From Capsulimonadaceae bacterium (GTDB lineage Bacteria; Armatimonadota; Armatimonadia; Armatimonadales; Capsulimonadaceae), in NCBI GenBank assembly GCA_031292625.1, contig JARLGU010000007.1:1-64000 (forward strand): a stretch of DNA of 64,000 nucleotides, read 5' to 3'. How positions within the stretch are numbered: position 1 is the stretch's first letter; the number at the start of each line of letters is the position of its first letter. Below are positions 1 through 27,274 of this stretch, in pieces. A model generated the notes under the pieces. That model was not told the DNA's origin. It did no database searches and worked only from the letters and a program-made list of their open reading frames with translations. A program made the translations under genes and the position numbers.

Positions 1-195
1 ACGCCGGTGGTCATCGCTCCGCCCGCGCCGGACGCGCCTACGCCGGTGGTCGTCCCTCCGCCCGCGCCGGTTGCGCCTACGCCGGTGGTCGTCCCTCCGC
101 CCGCGCCGGTCGCGCCTACGCCGGTGGTCGTCCCTCCGCCCGCGCCGGTTGCGCCTACGCCGGTGGTCGTCCCTCCGCCCGCGCCGGTCGCGCCG
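1..195 (+). repeat. 39-bp coding minisatellite (proline-rich linker)
   Basis: Five head-to-tail 39-bp units (1-39, 40-78, 79-117, 118-156, 157-195) each encode 13 residues of the type TPVVVPPPAPVAP. The first unit is the most divergent. Because 39 is a multiple of three, copy-number change keeps the reading frame. The array probably continues left of the window. It forms a rigid linker in front of the Ig-like and caspase domains of the host gene. Confidence 0.9.
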
Positions 196-1392
196 GTCCG
201 GACGCCGCAGATGACGCCGCCGGTGGTCATGATCGTTTCGCCTGATTCCGGTTCGTCCGTGACGAGCGCGGATGTGGCAATCACGTACATGGTCCACACC
301 CTATCAGGCAACGTTCCGAAGGATGTCCACGTTTTCGTCGACGACGCGCCCGTTGCTTATACGAACATCCAGAACCGGCGGATTATCTTCGTGGGGCAGG
401 ATTCGTCCAAGGTTACGATCTCCGTCAAGGTCCCGCGGAAGGACTGTAAGGTAAGCATCGTTGCGACCGACGAAAACGGGCAATCCGAGCCTGCCGTGAT
501 TGCGCTGGTCTGGAAGGGCGAATCGCCTCAGCCGGCCATTGCCGAACAGCCGGCGAAACCAGGAGCGGGCGTTCAGGTCGCGCGGATGCTTCCCGTTACT
601 CCCCAACGGACGCACCCTCGCATGCCGGCTCAGCCGCCGCACGGCTCGCTTTACGTGCTCGCGATCGGAGTCGCCAACTACAAGGATGCCAACCTGGCGC
701 TTACGTACCCTGCGAAGGATGCCAGCGATTTCGCGAATGCGGCCACAAAACAGCAAGGGCTTCGATACGCAACGGTCACGACGAGAGTCTTGACGGACGA
801 GCAAGCATCAAAAGACAACGTCGAAGATGCGCTGGAGTGGATGAAAACCGTTGTTAAGCCAGACGATGTGGCAATGATTCTGATTTCGGGACACGGGTTC
901 AACGACCCGGATGGCGATTATCGCTACGCCCCGTGGAACATGGATACCGCCAATTACCGGCATACGTCGGTGAAATTTAGCGACATCCGCGACTCGCTCA
1001 GCAAGATTCAGGGGAAGGTCGTCCTGTTCCTCGATACGTGCCACTCCGGAAACCTGATGGAAAGCGGCAAGAATCGGGGTCGGATCGACATCAACCGCCT
1101 CGTCAACGAGTTTACGAGCGCGGAATACGGCATCGTCGTATTCGCGGCCTCGCAGGGCAACCAAACCGCCGAGGAAAACGATGACGTGCGCAACGGCGTG
1201 TTCACGAAAGCGGTCGTCGAAGGGCTTAGCGGCCAAGCCGATCCATATGGCAGCGGCGAGGTCAAAATCTTGGGCCTTGGCGCGTTCATCTCGGATGAGG
1301 TACAGCGTCTGACGCAGGGCCGTCAGAACCCGACGTTCACATTGCCAACGACGACGACAAACTTCGACATCGCTTACGTCGCACAGTCATAG
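1..1392 (+). CDS. Caspase (C14) protein with Pro-rich repeat and Ig-like domain, 5' truncated by window edge
   Basis: The frame is open from base 1, so the true start lies upstream; GTG at 7 lies inside the repeat and is unlikely to be the start. Order: Pro-rich repeat (to about residue 65, counting GTG 7 as residue 1), Ig-like domain (about 68-170), then a caspase-fold domain (about 213-461). The catalytic dyad is visible as His296 in SGHG and Cys345 in DTCHSGN. The Ig-like and caspase parts align well with those of the complete WD40-caspase gene at 18414, so the missing N-terminus may be a signal peptide plus WD40 propeller (inference). Bacterial C14 enzymes are usually Arg/Lys-specific proteases. 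No partner follows directly; repeat element A begins 26 bp after the stop. Confidence 0.85.
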   Translation, partial: TPVVIAPPAPDAPTPVVVPPPAPVAPTPVVVPPPAPVAPTPVVVPPPAPVAPTPVVVPPPAPVAPVRTPQMTPPVVMIVSPDSGSSVTSADVAITYMVHTLSGNVPKDVHVFVDDAPVAYTNIQNRRIIFVGQDSSKVTISVKVPRKDCKVSIVATDENGQSEPAVIALVWKGESPQPAIAEQPAKPGAGVQVARMLPVTPQRTHPRMPAQPPHGSLYVLAIGVANYKDANLALTYPAKDASDFANAATKQQGLRYATVTTRVLTDEQASKDNVEDALEWMKTVVKPDDVAMILISGHGFNDPDGDYRYAPWNMDTANYRHTSVKFSDIRDSLSKIQGKVVLFLDTCHSGNLMESGKNRGRIDINRLVNEFTSAEYGIVVFAASQGNQTAEENDDVRNGVFTKAVVEGLSGQADPYGSGEVKILGLGAFISDEVQRLTQGRQNPTFTLPTTTTNFDIAYVAQS

Positions 1393-12348: not shown

Positions 12349-12579
12349 ATGTTGACGCGCTTACCCGGTTTCGTGTTCCTGGCCGCAGCCCTTATCCTCT
12401 TCGCCGCCGTCTCGCCGGCGGCCCTCGCGCAGGCGTCAAGCCGCACGATTGTCCTGACCAGCGCTGCATCGCCGGTGACCGGCAAATACCGCCTTGCACT
12501 CGTGATCGGCAACAGCCGTTACGACGGTGCGAATGAGTTGGTCAATCCCGGAAGCGCTCGCCCTCCCGCTTCGCCGTGA
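12349..12579 (+). pseudogene. Truncated secreted caspase-like gene
   Basis: A 76-residue frame with a good ribosome site (GGAG 8-9 nt upstream) and an intact signal peptide (to about ALAQA). It then reads RLALVIGNSRYDGANELVNPG, which is the first strand of the C14 caspase fold. The frame ends after ten unrelated residues. The His and Cys blocks are missing in all frames before the next gene. It is a remnant of another caspase gene directly upstream of the papain-caspase operon, or a short secreted peptide derived from one. Confidence 0.7.
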
Positions 12580-12691
12580 AGAACTTTACAGCGCGCGTAT
12601 GCACTCTTGTACTCTATATCCTGCAAGACCCGCGTACAATACTGATGTGTTCCGGCCCTTCGGATGGAATACAGTTGCAAAGGATGGAGCT

Positions 12692-13666
12692 ATGAAACAG
12701 TCAATGAAGCTAGTCTCGGTTTGGGCCGTTGTTCTTGCCGCCGCTTTCGTCGCCATGCCGGCGCAAGCCGATCCGCCGGGCGGGACGCACGCACATGGGC
12801 TAGGACTGACGTTCACTCCCAAGGAAGCCTTCGCAAAATATCCGAAGCTTCTCGTCAGCCGGGGCCTCGATTCCGACCGGCCTACCCGCCTGGTCTTGAC
12901 CGACTATCTGCCGAATGTGGTCGATCAGGGCGATACGGGCTCGTGCGTCGGCTGGAGCACGGCGTACTATTTCTACTCTTACACGGTCGCGCAGAACTAC
13001 GGATTGTCGCCGGCGCAGGTCAATTCGCCTCAGTTCCAGTTCAGCCCGAACTTCATCTGGGACCAATATAACAGCGGCGATGCGCAAAAGGGCATGCACA
13101 TTTACGAAGCGATGGATGTTCTTTCCAAGCAGGGCTGCTGCACGTTCCAGGAGATCCCCTGGGATCCAACCGGCAAGGCGCCGGTCGTCGACGCCGCAAA
13201 GACCCGCGCGCTCAAATACAAGGCCCGCCGGACGACCAGCCTGTTTGAAGGCGCGCCCAGCGATCCCGCGGATCCGGAAAAGCTCAAAACCGTCATTGCG
13301 GAAACCCATAGGCCGATCGTGCTTGGGATCGAGCTCTACAATGACTTTTACGAAGTTCCCCACGATACCGATTTCGTCTACTCGCCCGCCGCGAACGCGA
13401 TCCACATCGGTGCGCACGCCATTTGCATCATTGGTTACGACGATGCAAAACACGCGTTTCGCATGGTCAATTCGTGGGGCACGTACTGGGGCGACAACGG
13501 GTTCCTGTGGCTCTCCGAGGACTACGTGAAAAGGGACGCCAAGGAAGGCTGGACCCAGGATCCAGGCGGTCCGAAATCCCGCGATGCCTCGTCGGGCGTC
13601 GAGAAGCTGATCAAGTTCAAACATCTTTCGATACAGCCTGCCCGCCAAACCGCGACGGCGCGCTAG
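12692..13666 (+). CDS. Secreted papain-like (C1A) cysteine protease
   Basis: 324 residues from ATG 12692, preceded by AAGGA 7 nt upstream; a longer in-frame extension to 12527 has no such site. Signal peptide MKQSMKLVSVWAVVLAAAFVAMPAQA. The papain triad is complete: Gln79/Cys85 in QGDTGSCVGWS, His242 in IGAHAICIIGYDD, Asn260 in MVNSWGTYWGDNGFLWL. There is no long inhibitory propeptide, so activity may be controlled otherwise. It is the first gene of an operon with a secreted caspase (44-bp gap) and a DUF4384-like protein, pairing two cysteine protease families outside the cytoplasm. Confidence 0.92.
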   Translation: MKQSMKLVSVWAVVLAAAFVAMPAQADPPGGTHAHGLGLTFTPKEAFAKYPKLLVSRGLDSDRPTRLVLTDYLPNVVDQGDTGSCVGWSTAYYFYSYTVAQNYGLSPAQVNSPQFQFSPNFIWDQYNSGDAQKGMHIYEAMDVLSKQGCCTFQEIPWDPTGKAPVVDAAKTRALKYKARRTTSLFEGAPSDPADPEKLKTVIAETHRPIVLGIELYNDFYEVPHDTDFVYSPAANAIHIGAHAICIIGYDDAKHAFRMVNSWGTYWGDNGFLWLSEDYVKRDAKEGWTQDPGGPKSRDASSGVEKLIKFKHLSIQPARQTATAR

Positions 13667-13710
13667 GCCTTATCCCACGAGACGATTCTCGGGAACCCAG
13701 GAGAATGATC

Positions 13711-15078
13711 ATGAAAACATGCCGACACTATGCTTTTGCCGCCTCGCTCGCAATCTGCCTGACCAGCGCCGCGGCCAACGCGGATAAGGCATTGATCGTC
13801 GGGGTCAACCATTACCCGAACCTGCCTGTAGCCGCACAGCTCGATGGATCCGTCAACGACGCGAACTTGATGGCGAGCAAACTGAAGGCGGACAACTTCG
13901 ATGTATTGGTGCTCACCGATGCCGTTGCGACCAAGCAGGGAATTCTAAACGCCCTGCAGACCACAACCACGGTGATTAAACCGGAGGAGCGCTTCGTCTT
14001 CTACTTTGCCGGTCACGGCGCAAAGTTGCCGGACGGCAGCGGCGTACTCCTCGCATCGGATGCGTCTTCGGCGGATAAGTCCAACTACATTACCAAAGAT
14101 GAACTCGCCGGTGCGGTGGCCGCGATCAATGCGAAAGCGAAGACCGTCGTCCTCGACTCGTGCTTCTCAGGGGCAATGACGCGCGGCATTACCAAAGGCC
14201 GCCACCCTAAGGCGCGCTTCTACAACTTCTTTGGACTGCAAACGAAAAGAATCGTGCTGGCGGCCGCAAGCCACCAGGACAACCCTTCGCCGATCTCGGC
14301 TGGAAACGGCAAAGTCTGCTTTTTCGCGGCTTGCACGGACTCGCAGCGGGCCTATGAAGACGAGTTCGACGGCAAGGTTCACGGCGTATTTACGCATTAC
14401 CTGGTCAACCGCCTGAAGACGGACCCGGAACTCTGGTCGTCCGTGCAATCCGACGTTACCGCCGGGGTTACCGTGGAAACGGAACAAAACCAGAGCCCCG
14501 TGCTATCCGCGGAGTTCGCGGATGTACCGGTCTTTGATGGCAAGGGCGTGCCGAACTCCGCTCCCGTGCCGGAACGTCGTAAAGAGCAGTCGATCTGGCA
14601 GACGTTCAACGAAGACCACGCAAAGCAATCGATGCTTTCGTTGGACATCACGCCGGATTTCGAGACGCCGTTGCTCTCGAGCATCGCCGTTGGGCAGAAG
14701 TTCCACCTGCAGGTGACGACCGGGCGCACGACCGGCTATCTCGTCGTGATCGAACTCGACACGGACGGGGCGCTCAATCTCATTTCTCCGATGAGCGGCA
14801 ACGTGGAGGATGCCATGATGTCGCAAAACGGCAAGCTGATTTTCCCTTCCGATCCGAGCCAGACGTTCTCGGTCAACAAGGTGGGCAGCGAGCGCGTCCG
14901 CGCGATCTTGTTCAACAGCAAGGCCGACGCCCAAGCTCTGTTGCATGAGTTCCAAAACGGAACGATCGACTCCGTCTCGTCAGCGAAGCATCGCAGCATT
15001 TTCATGACAAGCGCTGATGTCGTCCCGTTCTACACGGCAAGCGCCGGCTTCGAGGTCGTTGCCGAGCTTCCGAAATAG
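13711..15078 (+). CDS. Secreted caspase (C14) with C-terminal DUF4384-like domain
   Basis: 455 residues from ATG 13711 (GGAG 7 nt upstream; ATG 13705 is too close to the site). Signal peptide to about ANA. Caspase fold from ALIVGVNHYP (about residue 27) with His102 in FAGHG and Cys151 in LDSCFSGAMTRG. The C-terminal part (about 305-410) fits DUF4384: HLQVTTGRTTGYLVVIELD, then dG.l.LisP and a strand with FPSDPSQTF. DUF4384 is known from other secreted caspase and kinase proteins. It lies between the papain-like gene and a second DUF4384-like gene (12-bp gap), clearly one operon. Confidence 0.9.
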   Translation: MKTCRHYAFAASLAICLTSAAANADKALIVGVNHYPNLPVAAQLDGSVNDANLMASKLKADNFDVLVLTDAVATKQGILNALQTTTTVIKPEERFVFYFAGHGAKLPDGSGVLLASDASSADKSNYITKDELAGAVAAINAKAKTVVLDSCFSGAMTRGITKGRHPKARFYNFFGLQTKRIVLAAASHQDNPSPISAGNGKVCFFAACTDSQRAYEDEFDGKVHGVFTHYLVNRLKTDPELWSSVQSDVTAGVTVETEQNQSPVLSAEFADVPVFDGKGVPNSAPVPERRKEQSIWQTFNEDHAKQSMLSLDITPDFETPLLSSIAVGQKFHLQVTTGRTTGYLVVIELDTDGALNLISPMSGNVEDAMMSQNGKLIFPSDPSQTFSVNKVGSERVRAILFNSKADAQALLHEFQNGTIDSVSSAKHRSIFMTSADVVPFYTASAGFEVVAELPK

Positions 15079-15090
15079 CAGGAGAAACTA

Positions 15091-16257
15091 ATGGCACGCT
15101 TCCAGCTCATGCTCGCCTTGACCCTGATGACCGCCGTCTGGTCAGTCGTACCGGCAGACGCAAGCGTGATCACTTCGTCGGTGAACGACGGCGCTTCGCC
15201 GATAATCTTGAAGATCGCCAATTTCAAGGACAGTGGAGGCTTGACCGGGACGCCATCCGCGGACCCGGTCAATCTCCAGCTTACGCGCGGCCTCGCAAAG
15301 TACATTCAGCGGGGACTGCCGAAAAATGCGCAGGTCGTGATTGCGGGCGCAAAGGATGCGCGCAAGGATCTCGACATTGTGGGCGCGGCCTACGACCTGG
15401 AGGGCGATGTCTCCCATGTGGCGTCGCCGTTGCGCGGCGGCGGTCCGTACCTTGTGGTTCTACGCCTTTTCAAAGAGGGCGCGCAGAGGGATCTTCTCGG
15501 GCAATGGGCCGGCGTGGCGCGCACGTATTTGGATCTGACAACCAACGTCGTTCGCGACAAACGCGTCGCTCCCGAGGGGCTCGTTGGCGGTTTGGGCAAC
15601 TGCGTCCTCATGGCTGTCACGGGCACGCCAGTCAACGTGCAGTCCACTGAGTTCGCGTTGGCGATGGAAAAAGCGATGGCCCCGGATTTGATTGCTGCCG
15701 ACATCGTCCCAGAGGCCACATCGCAGGTTACCCCCGATCCGACCACGCTGCGCAGCGGCGACCGCTACCGCGTCAAGATCAGTTCGAGGGAACACGGAAA
15801 CGTTTACCTGGTCGGCATCGACGCGAGCGGCAACCCGAGCGCGGTGGACATCGAGTATCCGGGAAATGAGATTCAGGTAGATGCGGATCATCCTGCCTTG
15901 CTTCCAGTCGAACCGGCCATACAGACCGGGAGCGTGCTCGTCCCGACGGACCGGCGCCTGGTCGTGCTGATCCGGCGAACACCTGCGCCAAGCGTTCCGG
16001 CCGTGCAGAAGATGTCGTTCGTCGTAGCCAATCCGCAGCCACAGCCGCAACAGAGCGACGATTCCGACCGGCCATCCACGCGGCCCGCAGTGGAGATTCT
16101 CGACTGCGGCGTCGCGGCAATTCCCTCGTCGACGCAGACGCGCGATGCCGATGTAGAGCGCATCCTCAAAATGGTTGCAACCGATCCTGCCGGAACGTGG
16201 ATTGGGAAAGAGATTGCCGTCCATATCCTTCCCGCCGTCGCAACGCCCAGCAACTAG
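15091..16257 (+). CDS. Secreted protein with DUF4384-like domain
   Basis: 388 residues, ribosome site AGGAG 7 nt before ATG, signal peptide ending ADA. The N-terminal part (about 35-200) resembles curli CsgG-like or Pal-associated periplasmic folds in composition (FKDSGG...LTRGLAKYIQRGL), but I cannot assign it. About 220-330 matches the DUF4384 pattern (GDRYRVKISSREHGNVYLVGID, later VPTDRRLVVLI). No protease motif. As third gene of the papain-caspase operon it may be a binding partner through a shared domain type (inference). Confidence 0.7.
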   Translation: MARFQLMLALTLMTAVWSVVPADASVITSSVNDGASPIILKIANFKDSGGLTGTPSADPVNLQLTRGLAKYIQRGLPKNAQVVIAGAKDARKDLDIVGAAYDLEGDVSHVASPLRGGGPYLVVLRLFKEGAQRDLLGQWAGVARTYLDLTTNVVRDKRVAPEGLVGGLGNCVLMAVTGTPVNVQSTEFALAMEKAMAPDLIAADIVPEATSQVTPDPTTLRSGDRYRVKISSREHGNVYLVGIDASGNPSAVDIEYPGNEIQVDADHPALLPVEPAIQTGSVLVPTDRRLVVLIRRTPAPSVPAVQKMSFVVANPQPQPQQSDDSDRPSTRPAVEILDCGVAAIPSSTQTRDADVERILKMVATDPAGTWIGKEIAVHILPAVATPSN

Positions 16258-16331
16258 CTTTCGGCTGCCCCCGATCGAGCCGTCAAATGCCTGCGCGACG
16301 GCTAGTTCACTGGCTGAATGCCAGTAAAACT

Positions 16332-16371
16332 CCGCAATTGTGCAATTTTCGCGAGCGACGCACAATTGCGG
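16332..16371. promoter_or_regulatory. 12-bp inverted repeat upstream of the crp-like gene
   Basis: Perfect arms CCGCAATTGTGC (16332-16343) and GCACAATTGCGG (16360-16371) with a 16-nt spacer, ending 24 nt before the ATG. No T-run follows, so an operator (perhaps autoregulatory) or mRNA stem upstream of the start is more likely than a terminator. Confidence 0.55.
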
Positions 16372-16383
16372 GGGCTTCTACGC

Positions 16384-16389
16384 CATAAT
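16384..16389 (+). promoter_or_regulatory. -10 box of a probable leaderless promoter (crp-like gene)
   Basis: CATAAT lies exactly 6 nt upstream of ATG 16396 with no Shine-Dalgarno sequence between them; transcription would begin at or near the start codon. Confidence 0.45.
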
Positions 16390-16395
16390 CCAGGT

Positions 16396-17106
16396 ATGGA
16401 ACCCTATGCACACCTGAGATCCGTCCCCCTTTTCGCAGGTTTGCCCGACAGCGATATCGTCGCGCTCGCCGCTCAGACTCGGCGTCGGGTGTATCGCGCC
16501 AAGCAGCAGATCCTGTGGCGAGGCGAACCGGGAGAGACGCTGTACGTTATCGCGAATGGCCGCGTAAAGATTCACAGCGCGACCGAAAACGGCACGGAAG
16601 TGACTCTGGCGGTGCTTGGTCCAGCAGGCTATTTCGGCGAGCTGAGCGTCCTCGACAATAGTCCCCGAAGCGCGGATGTGACGGCGTTGGTTGAGACGGA
16701 ATGCACGGTGCTTGACGGCGCGGCGCTGCACGAGACGATCCTCCAACATAGCGACATTGGATGGCGCTTGCTCCAACATCTAGCGACCCTCGTCCGCGCG
16801 CAAAATGCCAATATCGAATCCCTGGCGTCGCGGGACGTCGCGGGGCGGGTTGCCAAACTTCTCCTGCAGCTTTCGGAACAACATGGCGAGCCCTGGACGG
16901 AACTCGGAGTGCGCAGCCCGGCGCGCCAAGGCATACGAATTGCGGTTCCGTTGACGAAGATCGATATCGCAACATTCGTCGGCGCGACGCGCGAGCATGT
17001 GACGAATATTATGGGCGGCTTCACCCGGTCAGGATCGATTATGGCCGATCCCGACACCGGCCACATTGTCGTTCTTAAGCGCGATAATCTGGCGCGACGT
17101 GCTTGA
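16396..17106 (+). CDS. CRP/FNR-family transcriptional regulator
   Basis: 236 residues from ATG 16396 (an upstream in-frame ATG at 16318 lies before the inverted repeat and is unlikely). Cyclic-nucleotide-binding beta-roll (about 10-125) with GETLYVIANGRVKI and the phosphate-binding-cassette-like FGELSVLDNSPRSADVTA. A C-terminal winged helix (about 150-236) has the recognition helix GATREHVTNIMGGF. No FNR-type N-terminal cysteine cluster, so a nucleotide ligand is more likely than an Fe-S cluster. The next gene, a histidine kinase, starts 15 bp downstream. The inverted repeat in front is a candidate site for autoregulation. Confidence 0.9.
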   Translation: MEPYAHLRSVPLFAGLPDSDIVALAAQTRRRVYRAKQQILWRGEPGETLYVIANGRVKIHSATENGTEVTLAVLGPAGYFGELSVLDNSPRSADVTALVETECTVLDGAALHETILQHSDIGWRLLQHLATLVRAQNANIESLASRDVAGRVAKLLLQLSEQHGEPWTELGVRSPARQGIRIAVPLTKIDIATFVGATREHVTNIMGGFTRSGSIMADPDTGHIVVLKRDNLARRA

Positions 17107-17121
17107 AAGGGAATGGTTTCC

Positions 17122-18375
17122 ATGTCCACCGATGAGCCGGGAGCGTTTCTTTCCGCGGAACCCGCCATCGAGGCGGTTCAGCGCTTAACGCTCGCGCTTC
17201 ATCGCGTGAACGATCCCACTGTCATGAAATGCCTCGCTCTCGACACGGCGATTGCCGTGATCGGCGTCGAGGCTGGCTCGATCCTCACCTACAACTCCGT
17301 TGCGAAAACCCTCGTCTTCGATGCCGTCCGTGGTCCGATCGCGCACAAGCTTCAGGATACGAGCATCAGCGTCGAAAGCGGCCGCGGCGTCGTCGTTCAT
17401 GTTTGGCTGTCCGGGGATCCGCAGATTGTCGCCGATGCGGCCGCAACTCCAGAGCACAATCCGCAAATTGGCCGCGACCACTCCTTCGAGACGCGCTCCT
17501 TGCTGACGTCGCCGCTGCGCGCCCGCAATGCGCCTCCCTATGGCGTCATCCAACTTGTCAACAAGCAGCAGGGCGTATTCGATGAGCGCGACTTCGCGGT
17601 GCTGAACGTCATTGGCGGCCTGCTTGCAATGTGCCTTGAAAACGCCGCGCTTGCGCAGGAAGCAAGCCTTGCAGCGGTCGCGCGGTCGCTCGGCGAGCTC
17701 GGACACGATATCGGCAACATGCTTTCCGGCGTCCTGCCCTACGTGCAGATGCTGGGGGAGTTTATCCACGATGCTCGAAGCGGCGAAGGCGCGGCGGTTG
17801 CGGCGCTCGACTCGTTTTATGCCGAGTCTCTGACAGCGGTCACGGATAGCGTCGCCCAGATCCAGGCTTTGGCGCGGGAAGTGGCTGCGGCGGTCAAGGG
17901 CGAGATCGGCGGTCTAGACCTCGCGGACGGCAAGCCGCTTGACGTCGCCCGCCAGGTCGTGCGGGCGCTCTCGGAAAAGGCGCGGGCTCGGTCGGCAACC
18001 CTTACCGCCGATGGCGACGACTTCGACGCGATGTTCGATCGCCGGCGTCTCTACAACGCCATCTTCAACCTGGCCAACAACGCCCTCGACGAGGTCGACG
18101 CGAGCGGTCGCGTCGCCGTTGTCGTGACAGGCCGTGGAAGCGAATATGAGATCCGGGTGAGCGACAACGGCAGGGGTATGACTGATGACGTGCGCATGCG
18201 GCTCTTCACGGACGCCGCCGTTTCCACGAAAGCAGGCGGAACAGGTCTCGGCACGCGCATCGTTCGCCGCGTCGTCGAGCAACACGGCGGCCGGTTCGCC
18301 GTTCACAGCGCGCTTGGCGCGGGCACGACGATCACTCTGACGCTGCCTGTCGAGCCGGACGCCGCAGTTCGCTAG
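17122..18375 (+). CDS. GAF-domain sensor histidine kinase
   Basis: 417 residues from ATG 17122 (GAAAGGGA 9 nt upstream; ATG 17113 touches the site). GAF domain about 20-175; then a helical H-box with His195 in GELGHDIGNMLSG; HATPase_c with N-box NAIFNLANNALDEV, G1 DNGRGM and G2 GGTGLGT. No membrane segment, so it senses a cytoplasmic signal or redox state. No response-regulator gene is adjacent. It is co-directional with the crp-like gene before it and the WD40-caspase gene after it (38-bp gap to the next ATG). Confidence 0.88.
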   Translation: MSTDEPGAFLSAEPAIEAVQRLTLALHRVNDPTVMKCLALDTAIAVIGVEAGSILTYNSVAKTLVFDAVRGPIAHKLQDTSISVESGRGVVVHVWLSGDPQIVADAAATPEHNPQIGRDHSFETRSLLTSPLRARNAPPYGVIQLVNKQQGVFDERDFAVLNVIGGLLAMCLENAALAQEASLAAVARSLGELGHDIGNMLSGVLPYVQMLGEFIHDARSGEGAAVAALDSFYAESLTAVTDSVAQIQALAREVAAAVKGEIGGLDLADGKPLDVARQVVRALSEKARARSATLTADGDDFDAMFDRRRLYNAIFNLANNALDEVDASGRVAVVVTGRGSEYEIRVSDNGRGMTDDVRMRLFTDAAVSTKAGGTGLGTRIVRRVVEQHGGRFAVHSALGAGTTITLTLPVEPDAAVR

Positions 18376-18413
18376 GCTCGCATTTCCCAACATAGCCAGG
18401 AGGATTGATTCTC

Positions 18414-21281
18414 ATGCTGCTCCAACCGATCTTCCGTACGTTCGCGACGCTCTTCGCGGCGCTCGAGTGCCTCGCGTTTCTTTCGCAACGCGCGTTTGCC
18501 CAGAAACCGCCGACTGCGCCAATTTTGCGAATAGAGACCGGGATGCACACGGGGGGAGTACATGCGATTGCGGTAGACGCATCCGGGCGTTATATGGTAT
18601 CCGCCTCGGACGACAAGACCGTGCGTGTATGGGACTTGCGCTCAGGCTCGCTCGTAACATCGCTCCGGCCGCCTTCAGGCGGAGGTTGGCAAAATCAACT
18701 TTGCTCGGTTGCAATTTCGCCGGACAGTTCGACAGTTGCCTGCGGCGGCAACTGGCAGATCATATACGTCTTTGATCGCGCTTCCGGCAACTTGATACGA
18801 GAGATTCGCGGGGAACCTAGCGAAGTTGACAGCCTCGCATTCTCTCCCAATGGCAGTCTTCTCGCAGCTACTTTTTACAGGCATGGTCTTCGTGTCCATC
18901 GCCTATCGGATGGATCGATTGTCGGCTCCGATACCGCCTATGGGGCAGACAGCCGTTGCGTCGTATTTGATCCGGCATCGACATCCGAAGAGGCGCGGCT
19001 GGCGACATCATGCAACGACGGCTTTGTTCGAGCGTACAAACTGTCACCCTCCGGCTTGGTGTTGCGCGCGAAAGTCACGAACCCGTCGGGGGACTACCCG
19101 AGTCAAATCGCGTACTCACCCGACAGCTCAAGACTGGCTGTCGGCTACTTGGGAGGGAAACCTCGAGTGGATGTGCTGTCTGCATCCGATTTGTCGCTGC
19201 TTCTTTCCCCAACGGCGGCTGGATGGACGCAAGCCGTTTGCTGGTCTGCTGATGGCAATCAACTATTTTCAAGCGTCACCGGTGCAATTCGGCGTTGGAG
19301 CGAGGCCGGCAGGGGTAATTATATCGACTTGCCGACGCCAATAGGAGTAAATGATATTCACCCACTTGCTAACGGTGGGGTTGCCTTTGGCTCCTGGCAT
19401 CCGGCTGTCGGCGCAATCGACGCCAACGGTAAGCTAACTATGTTTCAAGCGCCGCCAATTGCCACTTACAAAGAGTGTGGCGACAGGTTCCGACTTACGC
19501 CAGACGGCACATCGGTTTCTTTTTGCTTCCAGCTAAACGGGAAGTTGCCGGCCTACTTCTCGATCCCCGACAGAGCCCTGCGATATAACCCGCCAACTAA
19601 TGCGATGGCTCCTCCTGTTGAGAAAGCGGATGGTATCGATGTGGAGGATTGGCTGTACGGAAAACACCCGTCGCTAAACGGCGCGCCTCTAAAAATGGAG
19701 GATAGCAGCGAATCCCCTAAATGTGTCGCCATTTCTCCCAACAAGCAGTGCATTGCACTTGGGACAAGCTGGTTTCTTCGTTGTTACAATCTGGATGGCT
19801 CGGAGCGCTGGAAAGCCGACGGTGACATCCAAGCGGTGAATATCTCGCAGGACGGACGTCTCGTTGTGGCGGCTCTCGGCGACGGCGCCATTCGTTGGTA
19901 CCGCATGACGGACGGCAAGGAACTGCTTGCACTCTTCCCGCACGCCGACCAGAAGCGCTGGGTGCTCTGGACGCCGTCGGGGTACTACGATTGTTCGCCT
20001 GGCGCGGAGGATTTGATCGGCTGGCAGGTGAATCGAGGCCCCGACCAGGCTGCCGACTTCTTCCCCGCGTCGCGCTTTCATGACCGGTTCTATCGGCCCG
20101 ATGTAATCTCTTGGATCATGACCACGCTCGACGAAAAGGTTGCGGTGCGTCTGGCGAATGTGGAGGCTGAGAAGACAAACCAGGTTGCCGACGTGCTCAC
20201 CACGCTGCCGCCTGTTGTCACCGTCGTCTCGCCGCAGACGGGCGATGCGATCACTAGCGACACAGTCGCCGTTCGTTACGTCGTACGCACGCCCTCCGGC
20301 GAACCGGCAACCGCGATCCGCTCGCTCGTAAACGGCCGCCCGGTCGAATCAGGCAGTAAGCGCATTCAACTCGTCTCGACGGACGGTCAGGCGGATACAC
20401 TCACCGTGACCGTGCCTCATGCCGACTGCACGGTGAGCGTCATCGCCGAAAACCGGTTCGCGGCGTCGGAGGCCGCGACGGTTACGCTACACTGGCTGGG
20501 AACGGCGCCTTCGCCAGTCTCCGCGTCCGAAAGGCCGACCCTTTACATCCTCGCCGCGGGAATCGGCAAGGCGTACCAGCCGCCGATCGATGCGCTGACC
20601 TATCCCGCCAAGGACGCCAGGGACTTCGTTGACGCCATGATGGCGCAGAAGGGCGTCCTGTACTCGGACGTCCGGGCGAAAGTAATCCTCGATCAGGATG
20701 CGACACGCGAGGCGATCCTTAAGGGCTTTGGGTGGATCGAGGAGCAGACGAAGGTGAACGACGTAGCGATGATCTTCCTGTCCGGGCATGGCGTGAACGA
20801 CAGGAAGGGAATATTCTACTTCGCGCCGGTGGACACGGATGTTGCCGACATTCGCGGAACGGGGGTCCGCTCCAGCGACATCCAGGAAACGATCCAGGCT
20901 CTCGCAGGCAAAACGCTCTTCTTTATCGACAGCTGCCATGCCGGCAACGCGGTCGGGACCGCGAAGCTCAAGGGCTTGTCAAATATCACGGGGGTCATCA
21001 ACGAACTGTCGAGCGCGGAAAACGGCGCGATCGTCTTCGCTGCATCGACGGGAAGGCAAGAGAGTGAAGAGGATGCCCAGTGGGCGAACGGCGCGTTCAC
21101 GAAGGCGCTCGTTGAGGGCTTGCGCGGCAAAGCTGCGGTAGACGCGTCAGGCCGGATTACGTGGACGTCGTTGAGCCGTTATGTCTCCGACCGCGTCAAG
21201 GAGCTTACGCACGGCGACCAGACGCCGACGACGACCACCCCGAACACGGTTCCGGACTTCCCGGTTGCCGTGGCGCACTAA
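18414..21281 (+). CDS. Secreted WD40 - Ig-like - caspase protein
   Basis: 955 residues from ATG 18414, with AGGAGG 10 nt upstream (TTG 18405 is too close to the site). Signal peptide to about AFA. WD40 propeller about 40-510 (first repeat ends DKTVRVWDL); then the conserved block KRWVLWTPSGYYDCSPG (about 516) found in WD40-caspase proteins, followed by GWQVN and FYRPD. Ig-like domain about 598-700; caspase about 705-955 with His792 in SGHGVND and Cys841 in IDSCHAGN. The propeller half is noticeably richer in A/T than the caspase half. The downstream gene is a paralogue without the protease. Likely a substrate-recognising, exported cysteine protease. Confidence 0.92.
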   Translation: MLLQPIFRTFATLFAALECLAFLSQRAFAQKPPTAPILRIETGMHTGGVHAIAVDASGRYMVSASDDKTVRVWDLRSGSLVTSLRPPSGGGWQNQLCSVAISPDSSTVACGGNWQIIYVFDRASGNLIREIRGEPSEVDSLAFSPNGSLLAATFYRHGLRVHRLSDGSIVGSDTAYGADSRCVVFDPASTSEEARLATSCNDGFVRAYKLSPSGLVLRAKVTNPSGDYPSQIAYSPDSSRLAVGYLGGKPRVDVLSASDLSLLLSPTAAGWTQAVCWSADGNQLFSSVTGAIRRWSEAGRGNYIDLPTPIGVNDIHPLANGGVAFGSWHPAVGAIDANGKLTMFQAPPIATYKECGDRFRLTPDGTSVSFCFQLNGKLPAYFSIPDRALRYNPPTNAMAPPVEKADGIDVEDWLYGKHPSLNGAPLKMEDSSESPKCVAISPNKQCIALGTSWFLRCYNLDGSERWKADGDIQAVNISQDGRLVVAALGDGAIRWYRMTDGKELLALFPHADQKRWVLWTPSGYYDCSPGAEDLIGWQVNRGPDQAADFFPASRFHDRFYRPDVISWIMTTLDEKVAVRLANVEAEKTNQVADVLTTLPPVVTVVSPQTGDAITSDTVAVRYVVRTPSGEPATAIRSLVNGRPVESGSKRIQLVSTDGQADTLTVTVPHADCTVSVIAENRFAASEAATVTLHWLGTAPSPVSASERPTLYILAAGIGKAYQPPIDALTYPAKDARDFVDAMMAQKGVLYSDVRAKVILDQDATREAILKGFGWIEEQTKVNDVAMIFLSGHGVNDRKGIFYFAPVDTDVADIRGTGVRSSDIQETIQALAGKTLFFIDSCHAGNAVGTAKLKGLSNITGVINELSSAENGAIVFAASTGRQESEEDAQWANGAFTKALVEGLRGKAAVDASGRITWTSLSRYVSDRVKELTHGDQTPTTTTPNTVPDFPVAVAH

Positions 21282-21329
21282 CGGGGATTGGCGGCAGGAG
21301 AGAATGCCTCTTTCGTGGAACTGACTTTC

Positions 21330-23570
21330 ATGGAGATCTCAAGCACATTCCGCGCAGGCGCGGCTGCAGTAGTCTCGATCGCGCTCTTTGGTTCCTTCAC
21401 GGCAATCGCATCGCCGGCACAACGGAACGTGTCCAGGGGCCCAATCCTTCGTATCGAAGCGGGGGCGCATATGGCAGCGGTAACGTCCGTTGCCGCCGAT
21501 GCGGCTGGACGCTATCTTGCGTCGGCATCGCTCGACAAGACCGTGCGCGTGTGGGATTTGCGTACCGGAACGCTGTCGCAAACTCTTCGGCCGCCGTCGA
21601 TCTACGGCGACGAAGGAAAGCTGTTTGCGGTGGCGATCTCGCCCGACGGCGCGGACATCGCCTGTGGAGGCCGCACCGGCGCATCGTGGAACGGCTCGTA
21701 CAGTCTTTATGTTTTCGATCGGGCAACAGGCGCGATGCTGCGTCGCGTTGCAGGCTTGCCGTCTCCCATCGCATCCCTCGCCTATTCACCCGGCGGCGTG
21801 TATTTGGCAGCTGGGTGCGTGACGGGCGGTTTGCGCGTTTATCGTACCGCCGACGGAAAGCTCATGGGGGAGGACGAGAAGTACGCGGGCCGGTGCAGAC
21901 CGGTTGTGTTTGATCCGAGCGCCCCGCCAAAGCATCCGCAACTCGCGTCCGCATCCGTCGACGGCTACGTGCGGGTCTACGCGCTGCGAGCGGATCGGCT
22001 GGCATTGCAACACAAGCGGTACACCGGGAAGCAGGCGATTGGCGGCCGTCAGCCCTACGGCATTTCCTATTCGCCCGACGGCACAAAACTGGCGGTCGGG
22101 TACGGCGATGCGTTGCGCGTGGATATCCTTTCGTCACGGGACCTTGCGCCGCTCTATTCAGCGAGCACTGCCGGACTAACCGGAGATTGCACATCGAGCG
22201 TTGCCTGGTCGTCGACCGGCGGCGCTTTATATGCCGGCGGTGCGAGCAAATCCGCTTCCAAGCGTTATGCGATTCGCTGCTGGCGTGGAGATGGGCGGGG
22301 CAAGTTAAGCGATCTGATTGCATCTGATGGCGCCATTCTCGACCTTGCGCCCGTCAGCGGCGGCGGGGTCGCGTTTGCATCGTGCGATCTCCGCGTCGGG
22401 CTCTTTGCCGCCGACGGAGCGCTGAAGATGTTGAAGACCGCGGCAATTGCGGATTTCCGGGACGGCGGCGCCGGATTTGCTCTTTCCGCGGACGGAGGCG
22501 AATTGTCGTTCGCGTATAAAGACGGCGGCGCATCGCCAGCCAGCTTCTCGATCCGGCAACGCGGCCTGTCGGCAGGCCCGCCGTCAGCGTCGTTGACGCC
22601 TGCGGTAACGAAGGTTGACGGCGTAGATATCGAAAACTGGTTCTCATCGCCGCATCCGGCGCTTAACGGCAAGCCGATCAAGATCGCTGGGTACGAAAAT
22701 TGCCAGAGCGTCGCCATTGCTCCCGACCGGAAGAGCTTCGTTCTCGGAAGCGATTGGAGCGTCTATTGTTTCCGCGTAGACGGCGCGAAAGCGTGGCAAG
22801 TACCGGCCTCGAGCGCAGCATGGAGCGTAAATGTGTCGCTTGACGGACGGTTGGCGACAGCAGCGATGGCAGACGGGACAATCCGTTGGTACCGGCTGAG
22901 CGACGGCCATGAGTTGCTCGCATTTTATCCGCATGCCGACGGCAAGCGCTGGTTGCTATGGACGCCGACGGGCTATTACGATTGTTCGCCGGGAGCCGAG
23001 TCGCTCCTTGGATGGCAAGTCAACAACGGGCGGGACAGAGCCGCGGATTTCTTCCCCGCGTCGTGCTTCCGCGAGCAGTTTTACCGCCCGGATATCATTT
23101 CCGAGATTCTCGACCTGATCGATGAGAAGGCGGCAGTCGCGGCGGCCAATGCCGAGGCAGGCAAGAGATCCGTCGCCGCGACCGATCTTCTGAGCCGCCT
23201 TCCGCCCGTCGTCACGATCCTCTCGCCTAAATCCGGCGATGCGCTTTCCGATGGCAAGGTGACCTTGCGCTACTTATTGCGAACTCCTTCTGGCGAACCG
23301 GCAACAATGATGCGCGCGCTGGTGGATGGCCGTCCTGCCGCATCGGGCGCGATGGCCATGCATGTCGTATCCTACGGCGGCCGCCAGGGAACGCTCACCG
23401 TTGACGTCCCCCGGCAGGATTGCTCTCTGAGCATAATCGCGGAGAATCGCTTTACGGCCTCCCAGCCCGCAATCGTCCATTTGCACTGGCAGGGAAAACT
23501 CCCCGCCCAACCGTCCATTGCGCCATCGACGCCGAACGCCACTGTTCCTCCTGTCGTCGCGGCGCAGTGA
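21330..23570 (+). CDS. Secreted WD40 - Ig-like protein, paralogue lacking the caspase
   Basis: About 746 residues from ATG 21330, which gives a clean signal peptide (MEISSTFRAGAAAVVSIALFG...); GTG 21315 and TTG 21288 are alternatives. The ribosome site is unclear. It aligns with the gene at 18414 through the propeller, the LLWTPTGYYDCSPG block (about 541) and the Ig-like domain (about 624-720). It then ends in a Pro-rich tail (PSIAPSTPNATVPPVVAAQ) where the paralogue continues into the caspase. The sequence after the stop shows no caspase remnant in any frame, so this is a settled domain loss or a form that never had it. It could be a non-catalytic partner or competitor. Confidence 0.88.
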   Translation: MEISSTFRAGAAAVVSIALFGSFTAIASPAQRNVSRGPILRIEAGAHMAAVTSVAADAAGRYLASASLDKTVRVWDLRTGTLSQTLRPPSIYGDEGKLFAVAISPDGADIACGGRTGASWNGSYSLYVFDRATGAMLRRVAGLPSPIASLAYSPGGVYLAAGCVTGGLRVYRTADGKLMGEDEKYAGRCRPVVFDPSAPPKHPQLASASVDGYVRVYALRADRLALQHKRYTGKQAIGGRQPYGISYSPDGTKLAVGYGDALRVDILSSRDLAPLYSASTAGLTGDCTSSVAWSSTGGALYAGGASKSASKRYAIRCWRGDGRGKLSDLIASDGAILDLAPVSGGGVAFASCDLRVGLFAADGALKMLKTAAIADFRDGGAGFALSADGGELSFAYKDGGASPASFSIRQRGLSAGPPSASLTPAVTKVDGVDIENWFSSPHPALNGKPIKIAGYENCQSVAIAPDRKSFVLGSDWSVYCFRVDGAKAWQVPASSAAWSVNVSLDGRLATAAMADGTIRWYRLSDGHELLAFYPHADGKRWLLWTPTGYYDCSPGAESLLGWQVNNGRDRAADFFPASCFREQFYRPDIISEILDLIDEKAAVAAANAEAGKRSVAATDLLSRLPPVVTILSPKSGDALSDGKVTLRYLLRTPSGEPATMMRALVDGRPAASGAMAMHVVSYGGRQGTLTVDVPRQDCSLSIIAENRFTASQPAIVHLHWQGKLPAQPSIAPSTPNATVPPVVAAQ

Positions 23571-23688: not shown

Positions 23689-26600
23689 TTACCTGCGCAA
23701 TTCCTTATGTAGTAGCAGCCATTTGTCTGGCAAAAGGGAGTCAGACGATTCGACTGAGAACAGTTCAATCGAGGGCTCCTCTGCCTTTACACCGCGATCA
23801 ATGGCCTGTGCAACATACCGTCCATCCGCCGACATCGAAAACGCCCCGCCATCGCGGAATGGACCGATTGTTCCAAATTCATTGAATGATGTCGAATCCA
23901 AAAGTCTTATCGTAGTGCAGGAAAGCGCTGGGCCGTCCGTAACGTCTGGCGGCGCCGTCCGGTTTTCCCCGCCAACAAACCACTTGCCACTCGACGCAAA
24001 TGCAAACCGTCCGCTCTCTCCCTGGCCATCAATCAGAACCGGATGGAGGTCTGGTAGTGCGAAGAGTTGGTACCGTCGATCGCCAAAAGCAGCGAACACC
24101 CTGTTCAAGACAGGCTGAAACTGCAGAGTGTTCACTATGGCGTCAAGCGTTCGCGCCCCAACGATCTTGCCCGTGGAAACATCCACGGAGAACAGGCGCT
24201 TACCGCGGGCGACAACGAGGAAGCGGCCATCGTTCGAAAACGCAGCAGACGGAAGGAAGTCCGTCTCGTCCCTCGGCTGAGACATTAGGCTCGATTTGAT
24301 TTCCTCGGATAGCGGCTCGGGCTTCCCTGTCTTAAGGTCGCAAATAACCGGGATGCCGTTTGCTGCAGAATAAGCGACGATGGCAATGCCGTTCGGCGCG
24401 ATGACCATCCCGCATCTCGACCAAGTATCGTGCTCCCAACTAGAGATTAAGCGCCAATCTGGAACGCTCCACACCGACACGCATACTCGCAAGGACAGCC
24501 CTTTCGCCGGGTCGGGTTCGCGAAAGCTCGATATTGCCACCTCGTCCTTACCAGAGACCCATGCCACGTTTCCAGGTGATAATTCGTGAAAACTGTCCGA
24601 CGTATTGGCCCGGATCGACTTCCAGTCGCCCACGCGCCAACATGCAGCGCGGCTCGACGTTGAGTGGGATCGAGAAACGGGCCCCGTCGCGACAAGCCAT
24701 TTGCCGTTTGGCGAAAATGAAATATCGGCGACTGGTCCCCAAGATATTCGATGATTCGGCTCGAGTAAATCAATCGCAGCATCACGATGTAAGCCAGTGA
24801 GAGCCGCATAGTTCCCTTCCAATATCGTCGAGCCCTGAAGGCGAACGTTGCCAATCGTCGCCACACACGTTACCGCCGCCATGTAGTACATGTCGTCGAA
24901 AAATCTCACCGCAAGTATCGGGCTACAAGTGCCAGGACGCACCACGCTGTGCCCGTATGCGTCCGCCCAAGCGGCGTCGTAGGATCTGTGCGGAGCGATG
25001 CCAACACACTGCCAGCTCGAGTCGGTTGCATACCACACAGGGCCAATTGACCACTCGTACCTAACGTCTTTTCGAGCCGGCTTCACTGTAGCGGTCACTA
25101 TGCAAGTCACTTTCTCGCCAAAATTGGGAGAGCGAGGCTCGTACGCTCCGCAAACTACGGAGATTGTTGGCGATCCTACCGGGTTGACGTTTACCACGAA
25201 CGAGGCACTCGACGAACATGCCCCTCCTTTGCCTGTCAACGCCACACGGTATCTCCCAGGCCTGGTCGTAGCATCTGCCACCACGGCAACCGCAAAGCGT
25301 CTGTCGCCAAGAAGATAACTGACCGTGTCCCTGCTTTGCACGATGCAAACTTTCAATCCTTTAGCCGGACGTCCGTGCGCATCGGTTATGCTGGTTGCCG
25401 TCAGATTTACAATTCCCTGGAATTCTCTGATCGGCTTGACTGTCGCAAGCAAGTTCTGACCAGCATGATCGCCTGCCGCGACGCAGACCTGATTCCGGTC
25501 GGTCGTAAGCGAAATCGCCGGTGCTCCTACGAAAACGCTTATCGAGCACTGAGCGCTCCTCCCCGCGAGATCCTTGCCGAAAATAACCAATTCATACCGA
25601 GCGCCGGTGGGTGCGTTCGGCATGATGCAAATTTTTGCAACGGAGATCTCCCCGTCAATCTGAACAGACGTTGGAAAGAAAGTCACCTTGGCGAAGCGAG
25701 ACACATTCGTAGAGATCCGCCCATTGTCGATCATCACCCAATCGAGGGCCACCAACCCTTTCTGCGTCCCGAGCGCTTTGACGCTCACCGCAAGATTCTT
25801 GCTGACGCCTGGTTTTAGCGCCACCTCACCGGGAGTACATTCTATCGCGTAGCCGGCCTCCAGGCGAACGTCCATTGCTACGTCGCTTTTGTTCCCGAGG
25901 TCGTCCGTGCCTGTTACCACGAGTTTGCAGTCGCCATTCGTTGGCTTGACGCTTGGCGACACGGTAATGCGCAATGCATCTTTGATGGTATTTGGAACAG
26001 AGAGAGCAACTGACGTTGGTTTTCCGGAAGAGACAAATGCGCCCGATATCCACGGCGTCATGTCAGAACCGTCGATATCGGTAACCGACGTAACAGCGAG
26101 GGTTACGGTTCCAGAGAAGTTTCCAATTGGAGCAACGGTAATATCCCTTGTCGTAAAGTGGGTCATGCCTGCTTCCGCGGTGTCCCAACCCGGATCGGCC
26201 CGGAGCGTAAAGTGCCCGCTTTGAATATGACCTTCAAGATCACAAATGGCTGGATCCCCATACTGATCTGTGCAAATCACCGAGACGTGATACGCTGCAG
26301 AGACAGCCTTCGTGTTCGCGATTACAGTGAGCTGAATAGATTGCGGTTGTCCATCTACCAGATTTACGGTATCCGGACTAACGACAGCTGTTACGTCGGG
26401 AGAATCGATCCGCGGCATGAGCGGCTTCAGGTCGTTCCACATAACCAGGCTCGTATTGAACGTCGCCAAACCCGTATAACCGCTTCTTGGCGTGACCGAG
26501 ATTGTTGCGCTTGCGGAGCTACCTGTAGGAACTGTCATGTTCTGAGTTGACGCAACCAGATCTATCGGCGCCTGAACGCGAATGGTCAACCAGGTCTCAA

Positions 26601-27036
26601 TCTTCTCACCATCCGCTCCTTTGACCGTAATCGCGACTACGTATAGCCCCATAACCGTATTGGCGGCGCCTTCCCGAGCAAAAACGGTGAGCGTGCTTAT
26701 ACGAGAGCGACAGCTCGGTCCAACCGTCAGAGCTTCAGGCGCCAACAAGACCTTAAGCGCGTCCGTCGGCTTACGGTCGATCCCCATTGCAAGAGCCGAT
26801 AGCGCTACCGCTTCGTCGTGCACGCCTGCGTTCAAGATGGTCACGGCTATCAAGCAATTTCCGCCCGCGTCGACCGTTGTAGATTGGTTCTGAATCGTAA
26901 GCCTTAGACTGCCGGACGATTCTTGGACAGCCGGATCAGCGAATAGGCAACCGCCGGAGAAAGCTCCAATAATGAATATAGCCAAGGCCGCGTTCCATCG
27001 GGCAACAATACTACGATAGCGATCGCCAAATTCCAT
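23689..27036 (-). CDS. Large lipoprotein with Ig-like domains and C-terminal beta-propeller
   Basis: 1,115 residues from ATG 27036, where GGAGG lies 6 nt upstream (ATG 27048 overlaps that site). The signal has a lipobox-like SGGC. About five Ig/CARDB-like beta-sandwich repeats follow (about 30-640; recurrent GxYxVxVxGxD endings), a spacer, then a propeller (about 760-1115) with ISFSPNGKWLVATG-type blades. No enzymatic motif. It faces the WD40-caspase pair convergently and shares the Ig/propeller theme, so it may be a surface binding protein of the same system (inference). GC content is lower than in neighbouring housekeeping genes. Confidence 0.75.
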   Translation of the reverse strand: MEFGDRYRSIVARWNAALAIFIIGAFSGGCLFADPAVQESSGSLRLTIQNQSTTVDAGGNCLIAVTILNAGVHDEAVALSALAMGIDRKPTDALKVLLAPEALTVGPSCRSRISTLTVFAREGAANTVMGLYVVAITVKGADGEKIETWLTIRVQAPIDLVASTQNMTVPTGSSASATISVTPRSGYTGLATFNTSLVMWNDLKPLMPRIDSPDVTAVVSPDTVNLVDGQPQSIQLTVIANTKAVSAAYHVSVICTDQYGDPAICDLEGHIQSGHFTLRADPGWDTAEAGMTHFTTRDITVAPIGNFSGTVTLAVTSVTDIDGSDMTPWISGAFVSSGKPTSVALSVPNTIKDALRITVSPSVKPTNGDCKLVVTGTDDLGNKSDVAMDVRLEAGYAIECTPGEVALKPGVSKNLAVSVKALGTQKGLVALDWVMIDNGRISTNVSRFAKVTFFPTSVQIDGEISVAKICIMPNAPTGARYELVIFGKDLAGRSAQCSISVFVGAPAISLTTDRNQVCVAAGDHAGQNLLATVKPIREFQGIVNLTATSITDAHGRPAKGLKVCIVQSRDTVSYLLGDRRFAVAVVADATTRPGRYRVALTGKGGACSSSASFVVNVNPVGSPTISVVCGAYEPRSPNFGEKVTCIVTATVKPARKDVRYEWSIGPVWYATDSSWQCVGIAPHRSYDAAWADAYGHSVVRPGTCSPILAVRFFDDMYYMAAVTCVATIGNVRLQGSTILEGNYAALTGLHRDAAIDLLEPNHRISWGPVADISFSPNGKWLVATGPVSRSHSTSSRAACWRVGDWKSIRANTSDSFHELSPGNVAWVSGKDEVAISSFREPDPAKGLSLRVCVSVWSVPDWRLISSWEHDTWSRCGMVIAPNGIAIVAYSAANGIPVICDLKTGKPEPLSEEIKSSLMSQPRDETDFLPSAAFSNDGRFLVVARGKRLFSVDVSTGKIVGARTLDAIVNTLQFQPVLNRVFAAFGDRRYQLFALPDLHPVLIDGQGESGRFAFASSGKWFVGGENRTAPPDVTDGPALSCTTIRLLDSTSFNEFGTIGPFRDGGAFSMSADGRYVAQAIDRGVKAEEPSIELFSVESSDSLLPDKWLLLHKELRR

Positions 27037-27274
27037 TCGATCCTCCATTAAATCCGCGGCAAAGTCTTTCCACCTTTACTCCTCCGAAGGCGATCTTCCT
27101 GCACAAGGCGCATTCTTCCGCGTAATGGAAATAACGCTGAAAACACTTACTGGCCGCTGAGCGCGTCCACTATTCAGCACTCGCAAAGGGCGCAGGCTCT
27201 CAACGCGGTCGCGGCAGCCGAACAGTTACACTGTGCGGCCGCGACCGCGCATCCGCCCGACTGCCTCGAAAAGG

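Follow-up and report, generated by a model that had tools for sequence, protein, structure and literature searches.

A recurring gene set pairing papain-like and caspase-like proteases in Armatimonadota points to an envelope proteolytic system

Bacterial relatives of caspases have mostly been discussed as intracellular enzymes of cell death or defence, and a locus in which such enzymes carry export-type N-termini and lie beside a papain-like protease and WD40 proteins raises the question of whether its genes form one unit outside the cytoplasm or are chance neighbours. We addressed this question in a Capsulimonadaceae genome of 5.8 Mb, where the window analysed spans the opening 64 kb of the 135.5-kb contig C25. 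The first-pass annotation had seen in this cluster a possible exported proteolytic cascade under shared control, and Pfam matches bear out the gene set that it listed (C1, C14-DUF4384-like, CRP, GAF kinase, WD40-caspase and WD40-only; Table 1). Seven genes follow one another on the forward strand from 12692 to 23570, with intergenic gaps mostly of 6–60 bp and one of approximately 140 bp before the CRP gene if the latter starts at 16396; from gene spacing only, we infer that they are co-transcribed. Clear Shine–Dalgarno sequences stand upstream of several cluster genes, and a scan for promoters and terminators returned counts near or modestly above those of shuffled sequence. Flagellar FliP, FliN and FliM genes running in the opposite direction flank the cluster on the left, and on the right come a convergent gene, whose 1119-aa product has a signal-like N-terminus and matches a propeller weakly, and then a purL-type gene.

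Table 1. Features of the cluster and the related contig-edge gene; the starts at 12692, 13711, 18414 and 21330 are corrected likely starts (the frames given to Pfam began at 12527, 13711, 18405 and 21288).
Feature	Coordinates	Strand	Basis
C-terminal part of third WD40-caspase, very probably (Pro-rich repeats, Ig-like, caspase), outside the operon	7..1392	+	PF00656
Truncated caspase gene (signal peptide and first beta-strand region of C14 domain, then stop)	12349..12573	+	50% identity to own caspase C28:36846-37511
Papain-like (C1) cysteine protease, predicted exported, 324 aa	12692..13666	+	PF00112, 5e-11
Caspase (C14) with C-terminal DUF4384-like region, predicted exported, 455 aa	13711..15078	+	PF00656, 1.5e-21
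Third gene, predicted exported, 388 aa: TolB-N-like domain (approximately 35-185) and DUF4384-like tail	15091..16257	+	Third-position homologues in G160, G156 and G158
CRP/FNR-type regulator	16318..17106	+	PF00027 (cNMP_binding), PF13545 (HTH_Crp_2)
GAF sensor histidine kinase	17113..18375	+	PF13185 (GAF_2), PF02518 (HATPase_c)
WD40-Ig-like-caspase protein, predicted exported, 955 aa	18414..21281	+	PF00400, PF00656
Caspase-less paralogue of the WD40-Ig-caspase, predicted exported	21330..23570	+	WD40 match only

The active sites of the proteases are intact. The two caspases of the cluster score 77.6 and 56.2 bits against Peptidase_C14 (cut-off 21.4) and retain His–Cys dyads that are conserved in relatives (AGHG / LDSCFSG and SGHG / IDSCHAG); both keep the Asp two residues ahead of the catalytic Cys (D-x-C), and H102, D149 and C151 are invariant in the alignment of the caspase-DUF4384 protein. 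PF14326 (DUF4384) reaches 22.9 bits in that protein, below its cut-off of 27, for which reason we call the region ‘DUF4384-like’, and gives no match in the third gene. The closest solved chain to the caspase is plant Metacaspase-4 (6w8s, E 0.001). With metacaspases and orthocaspases (PF00656; MEROPS C14B) these enzymes share the p20 domain, the His–Cys dyad and the D-x-C motif, but they differ in their exported-type N-termini and in their DUF4384-like or WD40-Ig partners. Orthocaspases are described in PMC6426788 as cleaving after basic residues, and the cluster caspases are expected to cut after Arg or Lys.

The papain-like protein matches Peptidase_C1 (PF00112) at 43.4 bits against a cut-off of 20.7, and its catalytic Cys, His and Asn are in place, within the motifs QGDTGSC, AHA and NSWG that are conserved in the module alignment. 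Its nearest solved structure is the cysteine protease 3ois (E 4e-12), which we take to be xylellain, whose N-terminal segment presumably covers the active site. Approximately 45 residues lie between the signal peptide and the papain domain here and, because of that segment in the nearest solved relative, an inhibitory N-terminal segment in the module papain is plausible but unproven. The protein thus resembles bacterial C1A cysteine proteases, among which 3ois is nearest, in its C1 domain and in the stretch of residues ahead of the catalytic domain, but differs in its conserved pairing with a caspase gene product.

Among the remaining exported-type products, the third protein has no Pfam match and a weak structural model (pLDDT 45 overall), in which only the N-terminal domain (approximately residues 35–185) is usable, with moderate confidence. 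On this weak model the domain aligns with the N-terminal domain of TolB (VIA Z 10.0, with an rmsd of 2.8 across 108 residues) and, less well, with CsgG, PelC and PqiC (Z 8–9); all four reside in the periplasm or outer membrane, in keeping with the signal peptide of the third protein, weak as the model is. The AlphaFold model of the WD40-Ig-caspase is firmer (pLDDT 77): residues 45–346 form a seven-bladed propeller (VIA Z 39 to 7bie, 1.7 Å), beyond which lie a second propeller-like strand region, Ig-like strands and the caspase region. Its paralogue has no C14 match and is 49.7% identical to it over 700 residues. Identity between the pair at codon positions 1, 2 and 3 is 60, 70 and 37%, which argues for protein-level constraint; to judge from this pattern, the caspase-less copy is under purifying selection rather than decaying. 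This paralogue, a putative adaptor in the first-pass annotation, was seen in the source genome only.

Two further caspase sequences lie in the window. The frame at 12349–12573, annotated earlier as a caspase remnant, gives no Pfam match, and its 75-aa product shares 50% of 64 aligned aa (E 2e-17) with the N-terminus of a caspase encoded on contig C28 of the same genome, with 74% DNA identity over 91 bp before the similarity breaks off. Its order of signal peptide, first caspase-domain strand and end, together with these alignments, identifies it from sequence as a real, truncated caspase duplicate. The other sequence, described at first as another caspase gene at 1–1392, does carry PF00656 but is a partial gene: it begins at the edge of contig C25 inside Pro-rich repeats, and the edge of contig C22 (L040 1–2478, minus strand) encodes WD40 and Ig regions followed by the same kind of repeats (PVVxPPAPVAPT). 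An assembly break thus very probably divides a third WD40-caspase, with its N-terminal half on C22 and its C-terminal part here, across an inferred C22/C25 junction.

Export of these proteins was predicted with a home-made rule for Sec-type signal peptides in place of SignalP; the rule looks for a positive n-region, a hydrophobic stretch and small residues at −3/−1, and 30% of all called ORFs satisfy it. Against this background, signal-like starts were found in all 20 module proteins whose N-terminus is present, over five loci and including proteases, third proteins and WD40 proteins, as well as in 8 of 8 caspases of the source genome with a known N-terminus. The cytosolic controls did not score (CRP, kinase, FliM, PurL, ECF sigma, anti-sigma, TIR and the second WD40 protein of G022). 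The signal peptides that the first-pass annotation had predicted for the protease and WD40 genes are therefore upheld by this rule and conserved across families. An Omp85 protein in the genome indicates an outer membrane and thus a diderm cell. The accompanying generalization of an intracellular site of action for bacterial C14 enzymes does not hold throughout, since PMC3501461 and PMC3355149 already record exported metacaspases; among them is one secreted caspase with YARHG domains (PMC3355149).

Whether the genes belong together was judged from their recurrence in related genomes, which the first-pass annotation had proposed as a check. Searches with the caspase-DUF4384 protein and with the C1 family covered all 291 genomes for the phylum, and those with the WD40-caspase and the papain covered 151 genomes (the source genome and 150 relatives). 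A papain and a caspase-DUF4384 gene are adjacent in 5 of the 291 genomes, from three families, and the linkage is borne out with the same order and strand, against the unlinked scattering that the first-pass annotation had named as its refutation. In G022, a member of a different family, papain and WD40-caspase lie 3.3 kb apart on contig C32, and the order on one strand is papain, caspase-DUF4384-like, a 466-aa secreted-type protein not recognisably the same as the third protein of our locus, and WD40-caspase. The papain gene is immediately upstream of the caspase-DUF4384 gene at three more loci (G156:C51, G158:C480 and G160:C707), where the third proteins are 25–28% identical to ours. In G158 and G160 the third gene is followed by a WD40 gene at which the contigs end; in G156 it is followed by an ECF sigma factor, a zf-HC2 anti-sigma factor and a second exported-type caspase. 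In three of the four other module genomes (families f6 and f9), the pair is thus followed by a gene for a secreted-type third protein and, after it, by one for a WD40 or WD40-caspase protein. A phylogeny of 26 papains unites those of the five module loci in one clade with support 1.0, and the matching module caspases form one clade with support 0.74. A sixth genome, G085, holds a separate papain–caspase pair approximately 1.4 kb apart, both proteins with signal-like starts and the caspase outside the module clade. Overall, C1 matches number 111, spread over 74 genomes, and at least 6 of them adjoin a C14 gene.

Outside this lineage the components occur apart. Among 396 Acidobacterial genomes, 10 carry papain relatives, at 12 loci, none of which shows a caspase in the flanking DNA covered, and C1 matches in plasmids of Leptospira, Persicobacter and Deinococcus have none among their annotated neighbours; caspase matches in the plasmid collection are only 24–31% identical. 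The closest WD40-caspase relatives outside the phylum reach 46–49% identity, and relatives in Acidobacteria, Nitrospirae and Delta- and Betaproteobacteria have signal-like starts but lack a papain, a caspase-DUF4384 or a third gene in their neighbourhood. These unlinked relatives place the pairing in one papain lineage rather than in the domain families as such. In six same-family relatives, papain and WD40-caspase were absent at the thresholds used, and this absence, with the rarity of the module, implies loss or transfer.

The regulators are a different matter. A relative of the GAF kinase is found in 49 of the 81 genomes searched, the source genome included, which makes it a widespread orphan kinase of the phylum, and in seven relatives the 1.5 kb to either side of it contain neither a CRP gene nor any gene of the module. 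Both CRP and kinase are absent from the other four module loci. We therefore reject them as a conserved feature of the module, and the proposed shared control by linked regulators is not supported; control varies by lineage, with CRP and kinase here and an ECF sigma/anti-sigma pair in one relative. The CRP and histidine kinase genes are likely chance neighbours, and may share the module transcript here by position only.

The recurring gene set points to an undescribed envelope proteolytic system rather than a chance cluster. Our preferred reading, to which we assign a probability of roughly 0.6, is that these genes make up a conserved, operon-like module for proteolysis in the envelope, periplasmic or secreted. 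It draws on the conserved order and strand, the conserved signal-like N-termini, the intact active-site residues and the single clade of module papains. Two unrelated cysteine proteases, one papain-like (C1) and one metacaspase-like (C14-DUF4384), would be paired in the envelope, and their partners would be a TolB-N-like/DUF4384-like protein of periplasmic type and a large WD40-Ig-caspase. The WD40 and Ig parts may recognise a target or surface, the third protein may hold the complex at the envelope as anchor or scaffold, and cleavage by the caspases would be after basic residues. The caspase-less WD40 paralogue could be a recognition subunit peculiar to the source genome, acting as competitor or partner. 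The papain may activate the caspases, the caspases may activate the papain, or both may work on substrates in parallel.

Chance proximity is what one might suspect in a genome with eight C14 matches, the more so as the module is missing from the closest relatives, but for the papain, caspase-DUF4384, third and WD40 genes it is refuted by recurrence of the same order and strand in three families and by linkage of 5 of 5 members of the module papain clade, and we regard it as highly improbable. Plain extracellular nutrition or envelope turnover would make the cluster an island for protein degradation, comparable to the glycoside hydrolases near it, and GH123 and cellulase genes do lie in the same window; exported-type C1 proteases are, moreover, widespread and mostly unlinked elsewhere. 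Metacaspase-type enzymes, however, are normally narrow-specificity processing proteases, digestion does not need WD40 or TolB-like partners, and the cluster holds no transporter or peptide-uptake gene, so that this account seems doubtful to us. A sharper version of the envelope-module explanation is an ordered zymogen cascade outside the cytoplasm, in which a triggered papain with an N-terminal inhibitory segment switches the caspases on by cleavage, or the reverse, and the WD40 proteins act as its sensor and its brake. The tight, conserved papain–caspase pairing, the second and apparently separate pairing in G085 and the residues ahead of the papain domain with 3ois as nearest solved relative all fit it, but the 12 of 12 Acidobacterial loci and the Leptospira, Persicobacter and Deinococcus plasmids without an adjoining caspase indicate that this papain type does not need one, and caspase-DUF4384 proteins occur without papain in family f14; such a cascade is possible but, in our view, considerably less likely than not.

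Exported proteases might instead attack neighbouring cells, in interbacterial conflict or fratricide, or act in envelope-side defence. Surface or fratricidal roles of exported metacaspases were already raised in PMC3501461, and the f14 caspase-DUF4384 relatives adjoin contractile-tail baseplate genes and a LysM-SH3-NlpC/P60 hydrolase. Baseplate_J is nevertheless present in 0 of 6 genomes with a papain–caspase pair, against 6 of 8 family f14 genomes, and a role as contractile-injection accessory is rejected for the papain-bearing genomes. Genes for immunity, for an NTPase or for toxin delivery are not recognisable in the module, and at the locus PADLOC yields nothing beyond a match to a generic caspase model and some weak, partial ones. 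NTP-dependent conflict systems with caspase effectors (PMC7159879, PMC8195603; NF047832) are similar in using a caspase as a possible effector and in their beta-propeller partners, but here there is no NTPase and no EACC1 component, the proteins are predicted to be exported, and NF047832 (EACC1-associated caspase) scores 63–82 bits, under its curated cut-off of 140. We consider a role in conflict or defence unlikely.

The envelope module is best compared with the prokaryotic metacaspase operons of PMC3501461, which describes multi-metacaspase, protease-containing and sigma-70-containing operons, the multi-caspase ones from Alphaproteobacteria, Bacteroidetes, Cyanobacteria and Deltaproteobacteria. 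The likeness extends to operons that join C14 with other proteolysis domains and sigma factors, and to N-terminal helices interpreted there as likely signal peptides; the text of that paper yields no mention of papain, and the sections of it considered here contain no arrangement of C1, C14-DUF4384, TolB-like and WD40-C14 genes. We found no description of the papain–caspase gene pair, or of the whole set, in the literature within our scope, which excluded most subscription papers.

As a conserved unit in which all proteases look exported and a C1 enzyme is paired with a caspase, the module offers a small, defined system for the targets and switching of caspases outside the cytoplasm. It is improbable, though conceivable, that the papain-like and caspase-like enzymes act in one switch-like extracytoplasmic relay, with the WD40-Ig proteins, one active and one caspase-less, as its recognition subunits; if true, this would be a caspase pathway acting outside the cytoplasm.

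A PVVxPPAPVAPT repeat is common to two contig edges of the source genome, and the sequences at these edges look like the two halves of one WD40-Ig-caspase gene, whose separation likewise has the appearance of an assembly break inside the repeat. Elsewhere in this genome lies the caspase most similar to the truncated caspase gene at 12349; by eye, it ends in a cyclophilin-like peptidyl-prolyl isomerase sequence C-terminal to the caspase domain. To the right of the cluster, a convergent gene encodes an exported-type protein of 1119 aa with repeated Ig-like stretches (seen by eye) and a weak C-terminal propeller match; no relative of it was seen in the other module loci.

Further genes accompany the module in two relatives of the same phylum. 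In G022, a gene 3′ of the conserved module encodes a WD40 protein lacking an export-type start and overlaps a TIR-domain gene. In G156 the module's third gene is followed by an ECF sigma factor, a zf-HC2 anti-sigma factor and a second exported-type caspase, in frames that abut or overlap. A third relative, G085, encodes an exported-type papain and an exported-type caspase paired on the same strand; this pair falls outside the module clade and is apparently a second pairing, independent of that in the module.

Within family f14, the caspase-DUF4384 relative lies immediately 3′ of contractile-tail baseplate genes at three loci, its upstream neighbours there encoding Baseplate_J, Tail_P2_I, a DUF4159 protein and a YARHG protein. 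The same loci also encode a LysM-SH3-NlpC/P60 hydrolase and additional exported-type caspases. Baseplate_J is present in six of the eight f14 genomes bearing the caspase-DUF4384 relative.

Locations of the genes and loci described
Feature	Contig	Position	Strand
1119-aa protein	window	23689-27048	-
Apparent WD40-Ig-caspase gene, one half	window	1-1392	
Apparent WD40-Ig-caspase gene, other half	C22 (edge)	L040 1-2478	
Caspase closest to remnant	C28	36846-37511 region (L049)	
WD40 and TIR genes	G022:C32	L039 14651-16020	
ECF sigma, anti-sigma and second caspase	G156:C51	L085 7349-9873	
Papain-caspase pair	G085:C449	L047 4173-8177	
f14 baseplate locus	G218:C29	L091 1-16656	
f14 baseplate locus	G118:C1	L090	
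f14 baseplate locus	G102:C1	L089
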